Origin: Deltaproteobacteria bacterium
GTDB taxonomy: Bacteria > Myxococcota_A > Polyangia > Haliangiales > J016
Assembly: GCA_003696105.1 (NCBI GenBank)
Contig: RFGE01000070.1
Span: 1-44,700, forward strand
Direction: 5' to 3'
Length of the DNA: 44,700 bases
Numbering within the stretch: the stretch's first letter is position 1; every line of letters starts with the position of its first letter. A program made the position numbers and the translations under genes. The notes below the pieces were generated by a model that ran no database searches, was not told where the DNA came from, and worked only from the letters and a program-made list of their open reading frames with translations. This document shows, in pieces, positions 26,689 through 44,658 of this stretch.

Positions 26689-27080
26689 CGGGCGATGTTC
26701 GCACGTGCCGCCGACCGCGGCGAGCGGGGTCCGGGCCGACCGCGGCGAGCGGGGTCCGGGCCGGCCGCGGCGAGCGGGGTCCGGGCCGGCCGCCGGCCGC
26801 GGCGAGCGGGGCGCGGGCCGGAGGGGCCAGCCCCCGAAGCGGGACCGCAGGCGCCAGGCGCGGTCGCGGCGGCCGCGGACGCGCCGGTCGGCGACCCGCC
26901 GTCGCGGTGGACGCTCGCGGCCGCCGGCGGCCGTGGCGACCGGCGGCCCGCGCGCTCGCGGCCCGTCGCGCCACGGGTTTTCGCGCCTGCGCCCCGGCGT
27001 GCGCACCATCGCGCGCGCGCACCGAGTCGCTCGCGCGCGTCCGGAGTTTTTCGGAATGTCGCTTGCATGTTCGGTCCGCC
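26689..27080. other. 392-bp divergent intergenic region, repeat-bearing, no gene seen
   Basis: The region separates the CBU_0592-like gene (minus) from the acidic protein gene (plus). It holds the four-copy tandem repeat at 26713-26819. The remainder is GC-rich and shows no domain, tRNA or convincing promoter. Long ORFs crossing it on both strands are Arg/Pro-rich shadows. Confidence 0.6.
26713..26819. repeat. 25-bp tandem repeat, four copies
   Basis: Copies start at 26713, 26738, 26763 and 26795, each centred on CCGCGGCGAGCGGGG. The first three are contiguous and nearly identical; the fourth follows a 7-bp spacer and carries a TC-to-CG change. They lie 25 nt upstream of the minus-strand start codon at 26688. 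Confidence 0.9.
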
Positions 27081-29353: not shown

Positions 29354-29461
29354 GCGGCGGCGCGGCGGCTTGCGCGGCGGCTTGGGCGGCGCGGCGCGGC
29401 TTGGGCGGCGCGGCGGCTTGCGCGGCGCGGCGCGGCTTGCGCGGCGCGGCGGCTCGCGCGG
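29354..29461. repeat. Degenerate 17/19-bp GC-only tandem repeat
   Basis: About six units of the form GCGGCGCGGCGGCTTGC (17 bp) or GCGGCGCGGCGCGGCTTGG (19 bp), partly alternating, with one shortened copy. The array lies in the divergent promoter region between the apaH-operon lipoprotein and the lipoprotein gene at 29521. Confidence 0.85.
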
Positions 29462-29520
29462 CCGGCCCCGGCGCGCCGCGGCGAGCGCGCGGTCGTCCGT
29501 TGCGGTATGGTCCCGCCGCC

Positions 29521-37905: not shown

Positions 37906-38511
37906 TCACCGCCCGACGTACGGCTCGAGCACCGCGCCGCGCGACATCGCGGCCAGCAGCGCCTCGGCAGCCCGCGGCGACCGCCGCGCCTCTCGTTCGA
38001 GCGGGCCGAGCACTTGCTGAAACGTGCCGCCGCCGCGCATCGGCCCGAGTCGTTGCCACGTCAACTCCGCGGCGACATACGCCGCACACTCGCCGATCGC
38101 GATGGCAAACTGCGGCGTCGCGATACGCGCGAGCCGCGCCAGCTCCGCGATCGTCCTGCCGCTGAGCCCACCGCCGGTGCGAACCCACGCCTCGACGGTG
38201 TCGCAGTCGTCGGCGTCGACGATGATCGACGACCGCGGCACGCCCGGCAGCCGCGCCGCTCGCGGCGCGATCGCGCCCCTCTCGGGCGGCGTGATCAGGT
38301 CCACGCGGCCGGCGGCAGAGCGAATGCTCACGTGCCGCACGAACCGCGCATCGCACGCCGCGTCCCGCGCGATCGCGCGCGCGCCCGCGAGCGGCATTTC
38401 GGTCCACTGTCCATCCGCCGCCGATACGTACAGGCTGTGGGCGTCGATCTCGACGCGCGCCCGCCGCGGCCGGCTAGGGATCTCGACGGTGGTCGCGACC
38501 CGCGGGACCAT
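37906..38511 (-). CDS. Cytoplasmic protein of unknown function
   Basis: A 201-residue protein without signal peptide or membrane segment. The N-terminal half is beta-rich (ARVEIDAHSLYVSAADGQW, RHVSIRSAAGRVDLITPPE). The C-terminal half is helical (TIAELARLARIATPQFAIAI, PRAAEALLAAMSRGAVLEP). I recognise no family. ATG 38511 is preceded by GAGGA 3 nt upstream of the start and by TAGCAT 8 nt upstream, so both initiation modes are possible. It converges on the propeller lipoprotein with 10 nt between stops. Confidence 0.7.
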   Translation of the reverse strand: MVPRVATTVEIPSRPRRARVEIDAHSLYVSAADGQWTEMPLAGARAIARDAACDARFVRHVSIRSAAGRVDLITPPERGAIAPRAARLPGVPRSSIIVDADDCDTVEAWVRTGGGLSGRTIAELARLARIATPQFAIAIGECAAYVAAELTWQRLGPMRGGGTFQQVLGPLEREARRSPRAAEALLAAMSRGAVLEPYVGR

Positions 38512-38519
38512 CTTTCCTC

Positions 38520-38525
38520 ATGCTA
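38520..38525 (-). promoter_or_regulatory. Candidate -10 box (TAGCAT)
   Basis: On the minus strand TAGCAT ends 8 nt before ATG 38511, with a GAGGA Shine-Dalgarno-like sequence in between. It is less clear-cut than the 6-7 nt cases. Confidence 0.35.
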
Positions 38526-38546
38526 GCACGCGCGCGCCGGCGCGCC

Positions 38547-39455
38547 TCAGTTGCAGGTACCGTACAGCTCCTGAATCTGCACGACGCCGGGGCCCACGCC
38601 CTTGGCCGTGCCGAACGTGCACCCCGCGCGCTGGCCGCCGTACTCCTGAAGCGGCTGCGTCCCGATCAGCAGGCCGCTGCCGTTTGCGCCCGTAGCTCCC
38701 GCCGCCGGCGACAGCACCGAGCGCGACAACGGCCCGCCGTCGGCAAAGTAATAGTCGTCGCCCGGCTGCGGCGTGCCGCCCTCGGTGATCGTCACGCCGG
38801 CCGCGGGTCGCCCCGACAAAAACGGAAACAGCGGCGGCTGCGAGGCATCGAGGAAGATGAGCGCAAGCGCGCCCATGTCGGAGAACGTCGCGCCGCCGAG
38901 CCCCGCCGCGGCGCTCCACGCGCGGTCGGTGTCGGCGCGCAGCGTGTAGGCGTTGACGCGAACCGCGCTGCCGGTGCTCGCCGGCACGATGGTGAGCACG
39001 GGCTCGTAAACATCGCCGGCGCCCGCGTCGTCGGTCGTGAGCACGAGCAATCCCGGGATCAACCCGGTGACGCCTTGCGCGACGAACCAGCCGCACGCAT
39101 CGGGCGTGGCCTCCGCCAGCGACGGGCCGCCCGGGAAGTCCACCGCATTGAAGAACCGCACCGTCACCGTGCCTCCTCCGGGCACGATCGACGTATCCTC
39201 GACGTCCAAAACGCGCCCGCACACGGTGATGCCGACGCCGCCCGGCGCGGGGCACGGCCCGTCCACCATCGCCGCGCAGCCGCCGGCGTCCGCGCCGCCG
39301 CCGTCCGGCGTCGCCGCGGCGTCGACCGCGGCGCGCGCATCGGCGCGCCCGTCCCCCGCATCGCCGAGCGCGGTGAGCACGTCCCCGGCCGTCGCATCGC
39401 ACGCGACGGACCACACGGCCAGCGCGCAGGCGACCCCCCGCGCTACCACGACCAT
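38547..39455 (-). CDS. Lipoprotein, last gene of the ECF sigma operon
   Basis: A 302-residue protein beginning MVVVARGVACALAVWSVAC, a signal peptide with the probable lipidated Cys at 19. A linker rich in Ala/Asp/Gly (ADARAAVDAAATPDGGGADA) is followed by a beta-rich domain (GVGITVCGRVLDVEDTSIV, GGTVTVRFFNAVDFPGG) resembling carboxypeptidase-regulatory or Ig-like folds. Few cysteines remain. Function is unknown. The start is inside the 3' end of the barrel-protein gene (13-nt overlap), so it is translated with that gene as the fourth member of the operon. Confidence 0.8.
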   Translation of the reverse strand: MVVVARGVACALAVWSVACDATAGDVLTALGDAGDGRADARAAVDAAATPDGGGADAGGCAAMVDGPCPAPGGVGITVCGRVLDVEDTSIVPGGGTVTVRFFNAVDFPGGPSLAEATPDACGWFVAQGVTGLIPGLLVLTTDDAGAGDVYEPVLTIVPASTGSAVRVNAYTLRADTDRAWSAAAGLGGATFSDMGALALIFLDASQPPLFPFLSGRPAAGVTITEGGTPQPGDDYYFADGGPLSRSVLSPAAGATGANGSGLLIGTQPLQEYGGQRAGCTFGTAKGVGPGVVQIQELYGTCN

Positions 39456-40420
39456 CCCACCCCCAGATAGGCCGCCACCCATCCGCCCTCCACGTTCACT
39501 CCGTCCGAACCGTCGACGCGACCGCGCACCGGATACACATGATAGCCGGTCTCGGCCGACAGCTCGATCGCGATCCGGCCGGCGCCGAGGATGCCGACCG
39601 TCGCGCGGGCGATCGGCGCCGCGAGCTTGCCCGACACGGTGCCGCCGGCGACGCCTGGCCCCGCCGGGCGCCCGGACAGGGTGACCGAGCCGACCCGGCC
39701 GCCGACGCCGGCGCGCGCGCGGAACGATCGCCATGATCGATGTACATACACCCACGCGCCCCCCCACAGCGCGGTCACGTCGACGGCGCCGAGCGGTTCG
39801 CGCCGCGTCCCCGATTCGACGAGCACGTCGGCCCCCCAGCCGATGCTCGCCGGCCCGTCGAACGCAACCCGCACCCCGCCGCCGAGCCGCCAGCCGTCGC
39901 GCCCCGCCACCGCGCCGCCGACCGCGGCCGCGGTCGCCCGCCATCGCGGCGGCGCGGCGGGCAGGCGCCGGGTCGCGATGGCGCGGGCCGATCGCCGCGT
40001 CGCCTCCGGCGCGCGCGCGTCGGCCGGCGCCACCTTCGGCGGCGCTTGCAGCTCAATCCAGCTCGCCACCAACAGCTCCATCATCGCGAGCGCGAGCAGC
40101 CGCTCGCGTCCCTTGGCGCCGAGCCGTATTCGGCGGGCGAGCGACTTGCCGGTGACCGGGTCGCGCACGCCCACTTGCACGAGCGGCCCGTCGCAGTGCG
40201 CGGTCACCGCGATGGCGTCCGGGTCGTCGCGCTCGACGGCCGACGGCACCGATGCGCCCAGCTCGAGCGCGAACAGCCGCCGCACCTCCGCGGCGTCGAC
40301 GTCGACGCACGCGTCGATGCGCAGCGACACCGCCACGCCCTCCGGAGGCGTCTGCGCGCGGACGCCCGCCGGCACCATCGCCGCGACCGCCGCGAGCGCT
40401 ACCGGTGCGCGGCCGACCAT
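39443..40420 (-). CDS. Exported barrel-like protein of the ECF sigma operon
   Basis: A 325-residue protein with a signal peptide (APVALAAVAAMVPAGVRAQ). Residues about 30-120 (VSLRIDACVDVDAAEVRRLF to LLALAMMELLVASWIEL) resemble a conserved periplasmic module that I associate with myxobacterial sigma/FecR operons. The rest is beta-rich and ends YLGVGWSW, with a terminal aromatic as in outer-membrane barrels. Two in-frame ATGs compete. The first (40429) overlaps TACAAT, and the second (40420) is exactly 7 nt after it. I choose 40420 as a leaderless start, so this gene may have an internal promoter. It overlaps the lipoprotein gene by 13 nt. Confidence 0.8.
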   Translation of the reverse strand: MVGRAPVALAAVAAMVPAGVRAQTPPEGVAVSLRIDACVDVDAAEVRRLFALELGASVPSAVERDDPDAIAVTAHCDGPLVQVGVRDPVTGKSLARRIRLGAKGRERLLALAMMELLVASWIELQAPPKVAPADARAPEATRRSARAIATRRLPAAPPRWRATAAAVGGAVAGRDGWRLGGGVRVAFDGPASIGWGADVLVESGTRREPLGAVDVTALWGGAWVYVHRSWRSFRARAGVGGRVGSVTLSGRPAGPGVAGGTVSGKLAAPIARATVGILGAGRIAIELSAETGYHVYPVRGRVDGSDGVNVEGGWVAAYLGVGWSW

Positions 40421-40427
40421 CGCAGCC

Positions 40428-40433
40428 ATTGTA
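40428..40433 (-). promoter_or_regulatory. Candidate internal -10 box (TACAAT) in the ECF sigma operon
   Basis: TACAAT on the minus strand ends 7 nt before ATG 40420 and overlaps the ATG at 40429. It lies between the tandem repeats and the barrel-protein gene, so the last two genes could be expressed separately. Confidence 0.55.
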
Positions 40434-40448
40434 CCGCCGCGGCGGCGG

Positions 40449-40590
40449 GCGGCCGCGGCGCGCGGCGCAGCCCACCGGGTCACTCGCCGGCGGCCGCGGC
40501 GCGCGGCGCAGCCCACCGGGTCACTCGCCCGGCGGCCGCGGCGCGCGGCGCAGCCCACCGGCCACCGGGTCACTCGCCGGCGATGCGCCG
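40449..40590. repeat. 41-42-bp tandem repeat spanning the fecR-TPR stop codon, three copies
   Basis: Copies start at 40449, 40490 and 40532 with the core GCGGCCGCGGCGCGCGGCGC followed by AGCCCACCGGGTCACTCGCC. The third copy has an extra CCACCGG. TCACTCGCC is the reverse complement of the fecR-TPR end (Gly-Glu-stop), so the gene's last codons and stop are repeated twice more downstream. Confidence 0.92.
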
Positions 40591-41604
40591 CATCTCGCGC
40601 ACGCGATGCCCGTTCGGGTAGCGCCGCAGGTAGTCGCGCGCGCGATCGCGTGCGCGTGCCGCCTCACCCGCTCGCGCCCACGCCTCGGCCTCCCGCGCGA
40701 GCGCGTCTTCGGCCAGCGGGCCGTCGGGCGCGAGCGCGCGCGCCCGCGCGAATGCGTGCGCCGCCTCGCGCGGATCGCCCAGTTCGTCGAGCCACACCCG
40801 CCCGAGGGTGAACGCCGCCAGCGGCGCCCGCGGATCGCGCGGGTAGTCGCGCACGACCGCGGCCAGCGGGTCGACGGCGGCGCGCGACCGGCGGCCGGCG
40901 CGCGCGCGATCGGCCTCGCGCAACAGATCCGCCACCCGCTCGCGCGGCGACCGCTCCCGCGGCGGCGCGGCGGCGCGCGCCGGTGGCGCGTCGACCGCGT
41001 CGGGCGGTGGGAACCGCGCGGTGTCCCCCGCGCGCACCTGCGTCCGCTGTCCCCGCCACTCGACCTCGAGCACGCCGTCGCCGGCCCACACCTCGGTCGC
41101 GCCGTCGTAGCGCGCGACCGAAAATTCCGCCGCGTACACCGCGATGCGCACGTCGCCGCTCACCACCTGCAGCGGCCGCTGCGGCCGGCGCGGCGCGTGA
41201 AACACCGCCTTGCCCGCGACGACGCGCACCTCGGCGCGGTCGCCCGCGTCGCGCACCACCTCGACCGCCGCGCCATCCGACCCCGCCTGCACCACCGTCC
41301 CGTCGCCCAGGGTTGCCAGCGACTCCACCGTCGGGGACGGCTCCGGGGCGAGCGGCGTGACCACCGGCGGGGGCGCCGGTTCCGCCCGCCGCGCCACCGG
41401 CTCGGGCGCTCGTCGCGACGGCGCGAGCCGGTACGCCGCCATCGCGACCGCCGCCGCGCACGCCGCCGCCCCGATCGTTCGCGCGACCGCGCGCCGCCGC
41501 CGGCGCACGCGCAGGCCGCGCCACGTGCGGTCGGCCCGCTCCGGCGTCCAGTCGACGTCGACGTGGCCGAGCGCTTCGCCAAGCTTGTCGGGCAGATCAT
41601 TCAT
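40570..41604 (-). CDS. FecR-domain transmembrane protein with C-terminal TPRs (probable anti-sigma partner)
   Basis: A 344-residue protein. The N-terminus (1-38) is cytoplasmic and ends in a run of arginines. One membrane helix follows (about 39-58, AVARTIGAAACAAAVAMAAY), then a Pro-rich linker. A FecR-like periplasmic domain (about 90-200) contains VVSGDVRIAVYAAEFSVARY. TPR-like helices (about 225-335) contain PLAAFTLGRVWLDELGDPREA. In myxobacteria such proteins are encoded with an ECF sigma factor and probably hold it at the membrane until a periplasmic signal arrives. ATG 41604 overlaps the sigma stop by 8 nt. Its own stop lies in the first unit of a 41-bp repeat. Confidence 0.9.
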   Translation of the reverse strand: MNDLPDKLGEALGHVDVDWTPERADRTWRGLRVRRRRRAVARTIGAAACAAAVAMAAYRLAPSRRAPEPVARRAEPAPPPVVTPLAPEPSPTVESLATLGDGTVVQAGSDGAAVEVVRDAGDRAEVRVVAGKAVFHAPRRPQRPLQVVSGDVRIAVYAAEFSVARYDGATEVWAGDGVLEVEWRGQRTQVRAGDTARFPPPDAVDAPPARAAAPPRERSPRERVADLLREADRARAGRRSRAAVDPLAAVVRDYPRDPRAPLAAFTLGRVWLDELGDPREAAHAFARARALAPDGPLAEDALAREAEAWARAGEAARARDRARDYLRRYPNGHRVREMRRIAGE

Positions 41605-42151
41605 TGCCGACCTCCTGGACCGACCTCGCGGCTCGCCGGCCCAATTTCCCCTTGTCGTCGTTTACCGCGGCGGTAATCGCATCTTGCGCCGCCTTGATCC
41701 GGCGTTTCGCCGTGGCGAGGGAGCAGCCGCACAGCTCGGCCACCCGCTCGAGCCGCTCCCCTTCGACGTAGCGGAGCGTCCACGCGAGCCGCTGGTCGAC
41801 CGGCAGCCGGTCGAGCACGCGGTACACGCCGGCGATCATCGCGCGGTGTTCCGGCGACGCGCCGCGGTCGGCGACCTCGTAGTAGTCGTCGGCCGCGTCG
41901 AGATGCAACAGCGCACGCAGCCTGCGCGCGCGCAGCCGGCGGCGACACTGCCGCACCGCGACGGTCGCGAGCCACCCCTTGACCGCATCCGGGTCGCGGA
42001 TCTGCCGAATCCCGCGGTGGGCCGCGAGAAACACGTCCTGGATGAGGTCGTCCACCTCGTCGTCGCGCCCGAGCAGCCGATGGCCGATCCGCGCCACGTA
42101 CGGGGCGTACCGGCGAAAGAACTGCTCCAAGTCGAGGGCCGCTTCGTCCAT
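41597..42151 (-). CDS. ECF-family RNA polymerase sigma factor
   Basis: A 184-residue sigma factor with region 2 (FFRRYAPYVARIGHRLLGRD, then VDDLIQDVFLAAHRGI) and region 4 (LPVDQRLAWTLRYVEGERLE, then VAELCGCSLATAKRRIKAA). Regions 1.1 and 3 are absent, as expected for the ECF class. It would direct RNA polymerase to stress-type promoters after release by the FecR-TPR protein. ATG 42151 places region 2 close to the N-terminus. In-frame ATG 42208 and TTG 42238 would give 203 or 213 residues and cannot be excluded. TAAGAT at 42264-42259 (minus strand) is a possible -10. The 8-nt overlap with the next gene indicates coupling. Confidence 0.93.
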   Translation of the reverse strand: MDEAALDLEQFFRRYAPYVARIGHRLLGRDDEVDDLIQDVFLAAHRGIRQIRDPDAVKGWLATVAVRQCRRRLRARRLRALLHLDAADDYYEVADRGASPEHRAMIAGVYRVLDRLPVDQRLAWTLRYVEGERLERVAELCGCSLATAKRRIKAAQDAITAAVNDDKGKLGRRAARSVQEVGNE

Positions 42152-42350
42152 GGAAAGCGCGGCGAGGCGAAGTTCGAGCGCCCCCGGCGGATGCTCGCGC
42201 GCGATCATCTCGATCCGGCAGTGGTCCGCGGGGGGCAAAACGGCTCAGGCCATACGGAATCTTACGGGGTTGCGGACTCGCACAGAAGCCCCGGGCGCCA
42301 TTCGTGCCGATTTGAAACCGGGGGCCGGCCCGTGACACGATGGATCGCGC

Positions 42351-43055
42351 ATGGGTGCGAGGGGGATCGCCGCGGCGCTGGCGGCCGTCGCCGGCGCCGT
42401 GACGGCGCGGGCGCAGACCTGCCCGGCGCCCGCCGGCGCCGCTCCCTCGCTCCGCGCGGCCACCGCATCCGCGCGCCACGCCTTTCTGGCCGGCGCGCTC
42501 GCCCGCGAACGCCATCGCGGCCGCTGGTGGAACCTCGGCTGGGGCTGGGGATTCGTCGCGGCGACCGCGGGACAGGCGGCGGTCGGCGCCGCGATCGACG
42601 AGGACAGCGCCCTGTGCCGCGCGTGCCAGTTCGTCGGCGCCGGCAAGTCGGCGATCGGCGTCGTGGCGACCTGGGTGCTGTATCCCGTGCGCGTGCGCGC
42701 GGTCGCGCCGCGCGCGGCGCCGACCTGCGCCGACGTCGCGGCCGCCGAGCGCGCGCTGGCCGACGCCGCCGCGAGCGAGCGCGTCCCGTGGTTGCGCCAC
42801 GCCGAGGGCATCGCGCTCAACGCGGCCGGCGTCGTCTACCTCGGCCTGGCGCACGACGAGTGGCGCAACGGCTTGATCGGCGCGGCAGTCGGCGTCGCCG
42901 TCGGCGAACTGCGGCTGTGGTCGCGTCCGCGCGGGGCGATCGCGGCGTTGCGCGCGTACCGCGCCGGGCGGCTTGCGCCCGCGCGCGCCACAAACTGGCA
43001 CGTGAGCCCCACCTTCGGCGGAGCCGCCGGATTCGTTGTCACCGGAACATTCTGA
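42351..43055 (+). CDS. Exported protein of unknown function
   Basis: A 234-residue protein starting MGARGIAAALAAVAGAVTARAQ, a signal peptide probably cleaved after ARA. The mature part has two hydrophobic segments (GWGWGFVAATAGQAAVGAAI and GLIGAAVGVAVGELRLW) and Cys residues at CRAC. It ends GGAAGFVVTGTF, compatible with a terminal membrane or beta strand. I recognise no family. It is divergent from the sigma-factor operon; the 199-nt gap between starts shows no strong promoter on this strand. The FadL-type gene follows on the same strand after 37 nt and may share its transcript. Confidence 0.72.
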   Translation: MGARGIAAALAAVAGAVTARAQTCPAPAGAAPSLRAATASARHAFLAGALARERHRGRWWNLGWGWGFVAATAGQAAVGAAIDEDSALCRACQFVGAGKSAIGVVATWVLYPVRVRAVAPRAAPTCADVAAAERALADAAASERVPWLRHAEGIALNAAGVVYLGLAHDEWRNGLIGAAVGVAVGELRLWSRPRGAIAALRAYRAGRLAPARATNWHVSPTFGGAAGFVVTGTF

Positions 43056-43092: not shown

Positions 43093-44658
43093 ATGACTTG
43101 CACCGCAACCACGTCACTCGCCATCGCGACGGCCGCCCTCGTCGCCGCGCGCATCGCGGCGGCCGGCGGCCTGGTCGTCCCCGGCATGGGCCCGCAGGCG
43201 CAGGCGCGCGCCGGCGCGTTCGTCGCCAAGGCCGACGACCCGACCGCGCTGGCCCACAATCCGGCCGGCTTCGCCAAGCTCGACGGCACCGTCGCGTTCA
43301 TCGGAGCGAACTTCGTGCGCATGGCGCTCGCGTTCGCGCGGACCGGCGCCTACGAGGACCTGCCCGAGGCCGACGAACCGTACGAGGGCCTGCCCTACCC
43401 GGAGGTCGAAAGCCATCCGTCGCCGTCACCGGGCATCGGCGGCTTCCAGGCGGTCCCGTACGTCGCCGTGACCACCGACTTCGGCCACCCGCAGTGGCCG
43501 GTGCGCGCCGCGATCGGGCTGTACTCGCCGCAGGGCTACGCCGCCCGCGCGTTCCCCGAGACCGTCACCGTCGCCGGCGTCGATGCGCCGGCGCCGCAGC
43601 GCTACGACGTGTTCGAGCAATACGGCCAGGTCGCGCATCCGTCCGTGGCGCTCGCGTACGCCGCGACTCCGACGCTGTCGTTCGGCGCGCGCGCCTCGTG
43701 GGGGTTCGCCCGGATCCGCACCCGCAAGGTCGTCTGGGCGATCCGCAACTACGAGGAGTGGATCGAAAAGGACAGCGTGACGACCATCCGCACGACCGAC
43801 CCGTTCATCCCGTCGTTCGGGCTCGGCGCGCTGTGGTCGCCGTCGCCGGCGTGGGAGTTCGGAGTCGGCTACGCGAGCGCCGTGCACGTCCGCTCGAAGG
43901 GCACCGTCCGCTCGCAACCCGGGTCCGCCGTTCCGGCCGGCAACGCGAACCTGATTCCGATCGACGACGAGTTCGCCCGCTGCGCGCCCGGCGGCGTCGA
44001 AGGCGCGCTCAAGATCTGCCTCGACTTCGACCTGCCGCAGACCGTCCACGCCGGCGGCCGCTGGATCGCGCGCGACGCGGGCGGCCGCGAGCGCGCGGAC
44101 GTCGAACTCGACGTCAAATGGGAGCAGTGGTCGAAGGCCGGCGTCACGACGACCACGACCGACGCGATCGCCGCCAACGGGCCGCTGGACGTCGCCCGCA
44201 TCCGCCACGGCTTCATCGACGTCGTCTCGATCCGGCTCGGCGGCGCGTACGCGCTGCCGGTCGCGCAGCGCGCCGTCCAGTTGCGCGCCGGCGTCGCGTG
44301 GGACACGAAGACGGCCCCGCTGAGTTGGACGCGCGTCGACCAAGACGGCAAGCCGCGCGCGACGCTCGCGACCGGCGTCGCCTACACGGCGGATCGCTGG
44401 CGCATCGAACTCGGCGGCGGGTACGTGTGGGAACCCGACCGCACGGTTCCGGACGACTGCAAGCCGCCGTCGGGTCCGACGCGCGACGACCCCGGGTGCC
44501 AGCCGGGGGGAGTCGAGACCCCGGTCGCGGACCGAAGTCGCCCCGATCCGGCGCAGCCGCTCACCGGCGCGAACAACCAGATCGAGAGCCCGTTCAATGC
44601 GGGCACGGTGCGGTCGCACTACGTGTTGCTCCACGCCGGCGTGACCGCCTGGTTCTGA
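43093..44658 (+). CDS. FadL/OmpP1-family outer-membrane transporter
   Basis: A 521-residue outer-membrane barrel. After a signal peptide (TSLAIATAALVAARIAAAGG) comes the FadL N-terminal plug signature: GMGPQAQARAGAFVAKADDP then TALAHNPAGFAKLDG. Strand-like segments continue to the terminal aromatic (LLHAGVTAWF). FadL proteins pass long-chain fatty acids or other hydrophobic molecules through the outer membrane. ATG 43093 is chosen as closest to the signal peptide. An out-of-frame ATG-TCA-TGA begins 5 nt earlier and ends on it. GTG or ATG codons farther upstream (43036) would add a charged stretch unlike a signal peptide. Confidence 0.94.
   Translation: MTCTATTSLAIATAALVAARIAAAGGLVVPGMGPQAQARAGAFVAKADDPTALAHNPAGFAKLDGTVAFIGANFVRMALAFARTGAYEDLPEADEPYEGLPYPEVESHPSPSPGIGGFQAVPYVAVTTDFGHPQWPVRAAIGLYSPQGYAARAFPETVTVAGVDAPAPQRYDVFEQYGQVAHPSVALAYAATPTLSFGARASWGFARIRTRKVVWAIRNYEEWIEKDSVTTIRTTDPFIPSFGLGALWSPSPAWEFGVGYASAVHVRSKGTVRSQPGSAVPAGNANLIPIDDEFARCAPGGVEGALKICLDFDLPQTVHAGGRWIARDAGGRERADVELDVKWEQWSKAGVTTTTTDAIAANGPLDVARIRHGFIDVVSIRLGGAYALPVAQRAVQLRAGVAWDTKTAPLSWTRVDQDGKPRATLATGVAYTADRWRIELGGGYVWEPDRTVPDDCKPPSGPTRDDPGCQPGGVETPVADRSRPDPAQPLTGANNQIESPFNAGTVRSHYVLLHAGVTAWF

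Follow-up and report, generated by a model that had tools for sequence, protein, structure and literature searches.

The window analysed here, 44,700 nucleotides (nt) of the contig RFGE01000070.1 from a Deltaproteobacteria bacterium (assembly GCA_003696105.1), carries on its minus strand four genes that were called as open reading frames and encode an extracytoplasmic function (ECF) sigma factor, a FecR-domain protein with tetratricopeptide repeats (TPR; FecR-TPR), a predicted outer-membrane barrel, and a lipoprotein. Sigma, FecR-TPR, and barrel make up a core that is conserved in Myxococcota. The fourth position is often, not always, taken by unrelated lipoproteins, among which a short tag recurs just behind the lipidated cysteine. 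This shared tag on unrelated proteins is the most interesting point of the analysis and was absent from the original prediction, which had been made from the letters of the stretch and its open reading frames. With moderate confidence, we regard the system as a trans-envelope ECF-sigma relay that has exchangeable tagged surface lipoproteins under its control and probably reads them as well.

All four genes of the original prediction were confirmed, as were the 8-nt overlap of the sigma and FecR-TPR genes (sigma stop at 41597, FecR-TPR start at 41604) and the 13-nt overlap of the barrel and lipoprotein genes (barrel stop at 39443, lipoprotein ATG at 39455; an alternative ATG further upstream, at 39482, is possible). 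The repeat array between the two pairs and the hexamer TACAAT (40428 to 40433) are likewise present. The features are as follows:

42218 to 42248, minus strand: predicted sigma-type promoter, CTGAGCCG-N15-ACCACTGC, from a de novo motif, score 9.3
41597 to 42208, minus strand: ECF sigma factor, 203 residues from the ATG at 42208 (184 residues from 42151, the start in the original prediction)
40570 to 41604, minus strand: FecR-TPR protein, 344 residues, with a short N-terminus, one hydrophobic stretch, a FecR domain, and TPR
41434 to 41487, minus strand: predicted membrane-spanning stretch of FecR-TPR, residues 40–57 (18-residue hydropathy 1.65)
41074 to 41313, minus strand: FecR domain, residues 98–177 (Pfam PF04773)
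40597 to 40884, minus strand: TPR region, residues 241–336 (NCBIfam tol_pal_ybgF 4e-8, OM_YfiO 1e-5)
40448 to 40561, no strand: 41-bp tandem repeat in the gap between FecR-TPR and barrel genes, 2.7 copies, 98% matches
39443 to 40429, minus strand: predicted outer-membrane barrel protein, 328 residues (325 if it starts at the ATG at 40420)
40046 to 40330, minus strand: alpha/beta domain of the barrel protein, residues 34–128, presumed periplasmic, with two invariant cysteines (C41 and C79)
38547 to 39482, minus strand: lipoprotein, 302 residues (ATG 39455) or 311 residues (ATG 39482), with a lipobox, an Asp/Ala/Gly-rich linker, and an uncharacterised body
39375 to 39401, minus strand: tag of the lipoprotein, C-D-A-T-A-G-D-V-L, matching the tag of core-flanking lipoproteins

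Loci were fetched for comparison (G numbers denote genomes compared and L numbers fetched loci), and their genes were called with a custom codon-usage script, not a published gene finder, which miscalled some cores (L281, L283). In loci fetched by barrel homology with at least 2.5 kb of upstream DNA, the order sigma, FecR-TPR, barrel on one strand is kept for 46 of 56 barrel genes. With loci of all origins, including those fetched by FecR or sigma, it is kept for 66 of the 80 barrel genes that have enough upstream DNA. Thus, when gene order was checked as proposed with the original prediction, it held for the first three genes, and the fourth was not conserved as a family. The aligned barrels are 18–36% identical to that of the window. 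The barrel protein alone has matches in 44 of 192 genomes of the class, and its profile has matches at 1e-8 in 43 of 377 genomes of the phylum when five candidates per genome are scored. Among the matches listed in a sigma-alignment scan, the best 17 loci from named genomes are nearly all filed as Myxococcales, Polyangiaceae, Myxococcota, or relatives.

Overlaps of the sigma and FecR genes are a trait of the family: 8 nt in 26 of 78 pairs, 4 nt in 23, and 11 nt in 9. The FecR and barrel genes abut or overlap (gap of at most 4 nt) in 35 of 74 loci. Hence, the 140-nt gap of the window, which contains the repeat array, looks like a local repeat expansion. A role of the array as a regulatory or interspersed element was considered and rejected, as the best match elsewhere in the same genome is 83% over about 50 nt and the region folds no better than shuffled sequences (z −0.93). 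The array is probably a local expansion without regulatory role.

The lipoprotein of the window, whose lipobox ends in WSVAC, has no Pfam, NCBIfam, or PHROG match. Of 192 genomes of the class, 17 have a match to it, its own genome among them, and in the neighbourhoods examined no homologue lies beside a core other than that of the window. The view of this protein as a conserved operon member was therefore dropped. Absence of the last two genes from homologous operons had been named in the original prediction as evidence against it; this applies to the lipoprotein family and not to the barrel, which belongs to the core. Members of the family are found at other places, and several genomes have them next to OmpA-like and TonB-plug genes. 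Neighbours of about 650 and 830 residues occur at L139, L141, L142, L144, L147, and L148, and in L139 and L142, the two loci scanned, they are OmpA-like and TonB-plug proteins. The copy of the family in the genome of the window lies at L139:6999-7778.

The fourth position itself is rich in other lipoproteins. Among same-strand genes no more than 300 nt behind a core, 16 of 32 have a lipobox, vs 49 of 323 background genes. After dereplication by barrel identity, 73 of 149 core-flanking genes have one, so that the adjacent lipoprotein gene known from Slam systems is found here too. Behind the lipobox cysteine, the mature proteins share the expression C-x4-6-[PD]-V-[LF]. Val (or Leu, Ile) stands at +7 or +8 in 26 of 34 sequences, and Val at +8, as in the window, is the commonest state (17/34). 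Over all dereplicated loci, the tag is present in 37 of 73 core-flanking lipobox genes vs 10 of 128 others (p 1e-11), and these 37 proteins have bodies of 20 families. In the discovery loci, the counts are 24/42 vs 7/80. In the held-out loci, for which the expression was fixed beforehand, they are 20/43 vs 5/63 (p 1e-5), and in the dereplicated held-out part 15/36 vs 3/50. As a background, G162, which has several cores, was sampled in twenty 20-kb stretches at even spacing, and the tag is present in 1 of their 64 lipobox genes.

The tag expression was reached in steps. A first lipobox rule gave 9 of 35, and the tag was recognised after this rule had been relaxed. Both were then changed further, the rule being relaxed again and the tag expression adjusted twice (11 of 19 behind the core vs 11 of 105), before the expression was fixed for the held-out loci. 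After fixing, the gene caller was retrained and all lipobox candidates, not the first only, were scored in both groups alike. Some held-out loci are orthologous to loci of the discovery set (G461 and G162 belong to one genus); this kinship is addressed by the dereplicated counts.

Relatives of the window lipoprotein at other places differ in their N-termini. The 27 other loci yielded 24 genes, of which 13 have a recognised lipobox (the rule gave no verdict for the other 11, two of which are cut by a contig end), and the strict tag is present in 0 of the 13. A near-tag, DAILIYPADAG, is found in L077. We also scanned the bodies of ten proteins, one of which (L137) proved not to be the lipoprotein. 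Strict-tag bodies comprise an alpha-L-fucosidase with an F5/8 C domain (L036), a DUF5122-type propeller (L121), and a weak VWA match (L160). RCC1 (L110), FG-GAP (L118), and laminin-G (L120) bodies occupy the same place without the strict tag, and three scanned bodies have no family (L034, L157, L043).

The search for a promoter motif of the sigma factor itself, suggested in the original prediction, was carried out de novo. By word-pair count, TGAG-N20-CACT occurs in 13 of 71 nonredundant sigma upstream regions vs 0.25 expected. Refinement by expectation maximisation gave TGAGCC[GA], a spacer of 14–16 nt, and then ..CACT, which is present in the window with a 15-nt spacer. Of the 71 core sigmas, 53 score at least 8.5, as do 1 of 47 ECF genes from other groups, 44 of 595 further genes at these loci, and 4 of 1420 shuffles. 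The matrix had been trained on the 71 sigma sequences counted here, the window included, and the other ECF genes, other genes, and shuffles serve as controls. By a plain consensus match, the motif is present in 11 of 27 held-out loci and in 27 of the other 44, vs 8 of 1420 shuffles. With both strands scanned, the site at 42218 to 42248 is the best in the window, where the exact consensus is found once vs 0.08 expected.

This site bears on the start of the sigma gene. It ends 11 nt ahead of the ATG at 42208, and a TTG at 42238 falls inside it. Hence, the gene probably starts at 42208 rather than at 42151. In many cores, the start codon of the sigma gene lies a few nt behind the −10 element, which suggests from the position of the predicted sites that core sigma mRNAs are leaderless or have very short leaders.

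The original prediction had also arranged the operon as two coupled pairs with a possible internal promoter at TACAAT. With FecR and barrel genes abutting or overlapping in so many loci, this model finds no support. The last two bases of TACAAT are part of the ATG of the barrel gene, and the hexamer occurs twice in the window vs 0.99 expected. No sigma-70-type site was found in 38300 to 42500, and no core-type site precedes the barrel or lipoprotein gene in the window. The internal promoter was thus rejected.

In the fetched loci, promoter and tag go together. Non-core genes with a core-type promoter (at least 8.5) have a lipobox in 36 of 44 cases and the strict tag in 21 of 44, and the values for other genes in the same loci are 191/626 and 35/626. 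When the tagged genes that immediately follow a core on its strand are set aside, 12 of the 28 others have a promoter (at least 7) vs 41 of 582 untagged genes. After dereplication, a separate site is present in 11 of 23 tagged vs 36 of 500 untagged genes (p 6e-7). Many of these tagged genes diverge from the sigma gene. Given the partial self-complementarity of the motif, we considered that the promoter sites of such genes might be the sigma gene's own site read backwards; 0 of 12 overlap, and this explanation was discarded.

Single cases were also noted. In G162 (L337, G162:C1 near 327,042), a 489-residue lipoprotein has both a core-type promoter and the tag at about 1.7 Mb from the nearest core found. 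On contig 242 of the genome of the window (L332:2444-3577), the consensus stands before a lipoprotein gene whose product has a chlorophyllase/PETase-like alpha/beta hydrolase domain. In L050, a promoter scoring 14.2 stands before gene 2, which encodes a membrane-protein-like sequence with a TPCVYPMIP motif, presumably reminiscent of DsbD-like proteins.

The sigma protein matches Pfam Sigma70_r2 (5e-15) and Sigma70_r4_2 (9e-9) above cut-off and hence has the ECF regions 2 and 4 of FecIRA-type systems. FecR-TPR, with a Pfam FecR match of 8e-8, is predicted to cross the membrane once and is encoded beside the sigma factor with overlapping genes, as also expected of that type. A hydrophobic stretch above 1.3 is present in 70 of 78 FecR proteins behind a sigma, with a median start at residue 46. 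The TPR part stays below the curated cut-offs in Pfam and NCBIfam, and its matches are of the YbgF/BamD type. The sequence relatives of the FecR-TPR profile in the PDB include 6ovk chain R (E 1e-6), which we take to be PupR of pseudobactin signalling. The periplasmic part of PupR is reported to bind the signalling domain of PupB (PMC9249621). FecR-TPR is likely an anti-sigma factor and periplasmic receiver.

The barrel protein belongs to no curated Pfam or NCBIfam family and has no PHROG match; the single Pfam row (E 0.27) is at chance level, as are the rows of a PDB sequence search with its profile. None of the 25 aligned members matches a Pfam family at E 0.01. AlphaFold2 with 14 sequences predicts 8 strands at residues 162–327 and a separate alpha/beta domain at residues 34–128 (mean predicted local distance difference test (pLDDT) 82, predicted template modelling score (pTM) 0.55). 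The model matches OmpW (2f1v; Z 17.9, root-mean-square deviation (rmsd) 2.5 over 169 residues) and OmpA (1qjp; Z 16.9, rmsd 2.2 over 133 residues). On this model, the protein is predicted to be an 8-stranded outer-membrane barrel of the OmpA/OmpW type. Predicted alone, the N-terminal domain reaches pLDDT 86.7 and pTM 0.77. All 25 rows of the alignment have C41 and C79, and 74 of 84 barrels contain a C-x26-50-C pair, as would be expected of a periplasmic disulfide. The original prediction had proposed a trans-envelope signalling path, an idea strengthened by the conserved core order and by a predicted outer-membrane barrel with a separate N-terminal domain.

Taken as a relay, the system would work in the following manner. 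The sigma factor would transcribe its own operon from the TGAGCC-N15-CACT promoter. FecR-TPR would act as anti-sigma factor and keep it at the inner membrane, with the FecR and TPR parts reaching into the periplasm. There, the 8-stranded barrel would present its periplasmic N-terminal domain from the outer membrane to FecR-TPR, much as FecA does towards FecR. The outermost element would be a lipoprotein with a variable body, the first about nine residues of which may be a tag recognised by the barrel or FecR-TPR. The sigma factor would also drive the lipoprotein, by read-through in the window and from an own promoter copy in many relatives. Of this picture, the computation shows the gene order, the promoter, the predicted barrel fold, the tag, and the link of tag and promoter to the core, whereas the anti-sigma action, the contact of barrel and FecR, docking by the tag, and the signalling direction are inferred. 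More tentatively, and as a possibility we favour less than the relay as such, one sigma/FecR-TPR/barrel relay may read many unrelated surface lipoproteins through a common N-terminal docking tag, like a plug-in sensor. Lineages could then switch the sensed input by giving a new lipoprotein the tag together with the promoter or the place in the operon, and the window would have recruited a family that elsewhere often sits in an OmpA/TonB-plug cluster.

If the relay exists, it would be a form of cell-surface signalling without a TonB-dependent transducer, in which the input is exchangeable by a short N-terminal tag. In myxobacteria-like bacteria, it would provide a path from ligands outside the cell to transcription that can be tested. 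Tag and promoter would allow uncharacterised lipoproteins to be assigned to a sigma factor from their sequence, and the building of sensors would profit from a tag that can be transferred.

Several observations speak against this view. The strict tag is missing in 36 of 73 flanking lipobox genes, and 76 of 149 core-flanking genes have no lipobox. The next gene is housekeeping-like or on the opposite strand in several loci (some genes in fourth position we take, from their sequence, to be htpG, thiC, a ferredoxin/FAD protein, and a kinase), and several cores have no flanking lipoprotein. The N-terminal domain of the barrel resembles PqiC (best, Z 8.6), LptE, and TolB, with marginal values of Z 7–8.6; a FecA-type signalling domain is not among the structure-match rows shown, which do not exclude one, and a Foldseek search at E 0.001 found nothing. 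The lipoprotein gene of the window lacks its own promoter and would depend on read-through. The tag could also be a sorting or export signal and not a docking peptide. Threading of the lipoprotein through the barrel, which was considered as well, is unlikely, since an 8-stranded barrel has no open channel, as reported for OmpA (PMC7553776).

The bare consensus, too, is not enriched in whole genomes. The genome of the window has 5 sites vs 19 of the reversed pattern, G162 has 125 vs 141, and G164 11 vs 44. A genome-wide regulon from the consensus alone was therefore rejected for these three genomes, and no regulon size is claimed. Of the other 4 sites in the genome of the window, 2 precede lipoprotein genes whose N-termini fail the strict tag and 2 lie inside genes. 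In 41 loci around the first 30 by position of the 125 G162 sites and all 11 G164 sites, 16 site rows (repeats included) are close to the start of a gene; the gene has a lipobox in 4 and the tag in 2, and one of the latter lies at a known core.

The same parts might serve export instead, which we hold to be rather unlikely. The tag would then be a surface-export or sorting signal, the barrel and the periplasmic TPR a dedicated Slam-like exporter, and the lipoprotein an output and not a sensor, with exporter and cargo both under control of the sigma factor. In Slam, a TPR domain goes with a barrel, and a lipobox gene adjoins 185 of 353 Slam genes (PMC5449769), a share close to the 73 of 149 here; however, the barrel has 8 predicted strands, not 14, and the TPR sits on the FecR-domain protein, not on the barrel. 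An export signal in Bacteroidetes is a short acidic motif near the lipidated cysteine (PMC5080379), and the sigma promoter directly upstream of many tagged lipoproteins, including the unlinked one in G162, would suit controlled cargo, but an exporter would have no need of a FecR domain in its operon.

An improbable reading is that FecR-TPR surveys outer-membrane assembly, its BamD/YbgF-like TPR sensing an unassembled barrel or a mislocalised lipoprotein and freeing the sigma factor, with the surface body incidental. The TPR matches to YbgF, BamD, and CpoB models or chains and the promoter shared by lipoprotein genes fit this reading, and a barrel in the operon of the sigma factor would give feedback; yet the variable bodies (20 families) with a constant tag and the conserved N-terminal domain of the barrel would be left unexplained. 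Very improbable is a regulatory pair of sigma and FecR-TPR only, with barrel and lipoprotein as ordinary co-transcribed envelope proteins: ECF/FecR pairs without known outer-membrane partner have been described, as in Leptospira (PMC12155086), and some cores lack the lipoprotein, but the barrel stays with the pair in 46 of 56 barrel-fetched cases despite its low identity.

Among known systems, the proposed relay comes close to FecI-FecR-FecA and PupI-PupR-PupB. There, too, an ECF sigma factor is encoded together with a membrane protein that has a FecR domain and with an outer-membrane barrel extended by an N-terminal domain, and the FecR domain of the window is related to 6ovk chain R. In contrast to these, an 8-stranded OmpA/OmpW-type barrel here replaces the TonB-dependent transducer, the receiver has TPR, and an extra tagged lipoprotein is often present. 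No TonB plug or TonB-barrel match (Pfam) was found in the sigma factor, FecR-TPR, barrel, and lipoprotein, and the AlphaFold model has no plug; the search covered these four proteins. In Leptospira, LIC_12757/LIC_12756 are likewise an ECF sigma factor and a FecR-like regulator for which no FecA-type partner is described, and the available excerpt of that report names no TPR, barrel, or lipoprotein partner (PMC12155086).

Slam has in common with the operon TPR, a barrel, and an adjacent lipoprotein gene (PMC5449769), whereas here TPR and barrel are on separate proteins, 8 strands are predicted vs 14, and the operon has its own sigma factor. An N-terminal TPR with a 14-stranded DUF560 barrel in one protein was not found by Pfam in the barrel or 25 homologues. 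Slam lipoproteins are described as sharing an eight-stranded barrel domain (PMC5449769), unlike the 20 body families here. The operon was assigned to neither FecIRA nor Slam, because defining features of each were tested and found lacking. In the Rcs system, a lipoprotein with a disordered linker (RcsF) and an 8-stranded barrel with a periplasmic domain (OmpA) also feed signalling (PMC7553776). The output there is a phosphorelay and not an ECF sigma factor, and here the extra domain precedes the barrel and the lipoprotein bodies vary. The lipoprotein export signal (LES) of Bacteroidetes is also a short motif just behind the lipidated cysteine, common to many surface lipoproteins (PMC5080379). 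It reads K-(D/E)2 or Q-A-(D/E)2, whereas the present tag has V-L/F at about +8 and is tied to one operon type; neither form of the LES is in the mature N-terminus of the window lipoprotein, CDATAGDVLTAL. No description of the operon or the tag was found in the literature searched, which comprised titles and abstract openings, with most subscription papers beyond its reach.

Next to the operon, the window encodes a divergent, secreted-looking protein without Pfam family (42351 to 43055), followed by a FadL/TodX-type outer-membrane transporter (43093 to 44658), and no core-type promoter is listed near either gene. Further GC-rich tandem repeats lie at 26710 to 26810 and 29356 to 29466, with periods of about 25 and 14–36 bp.

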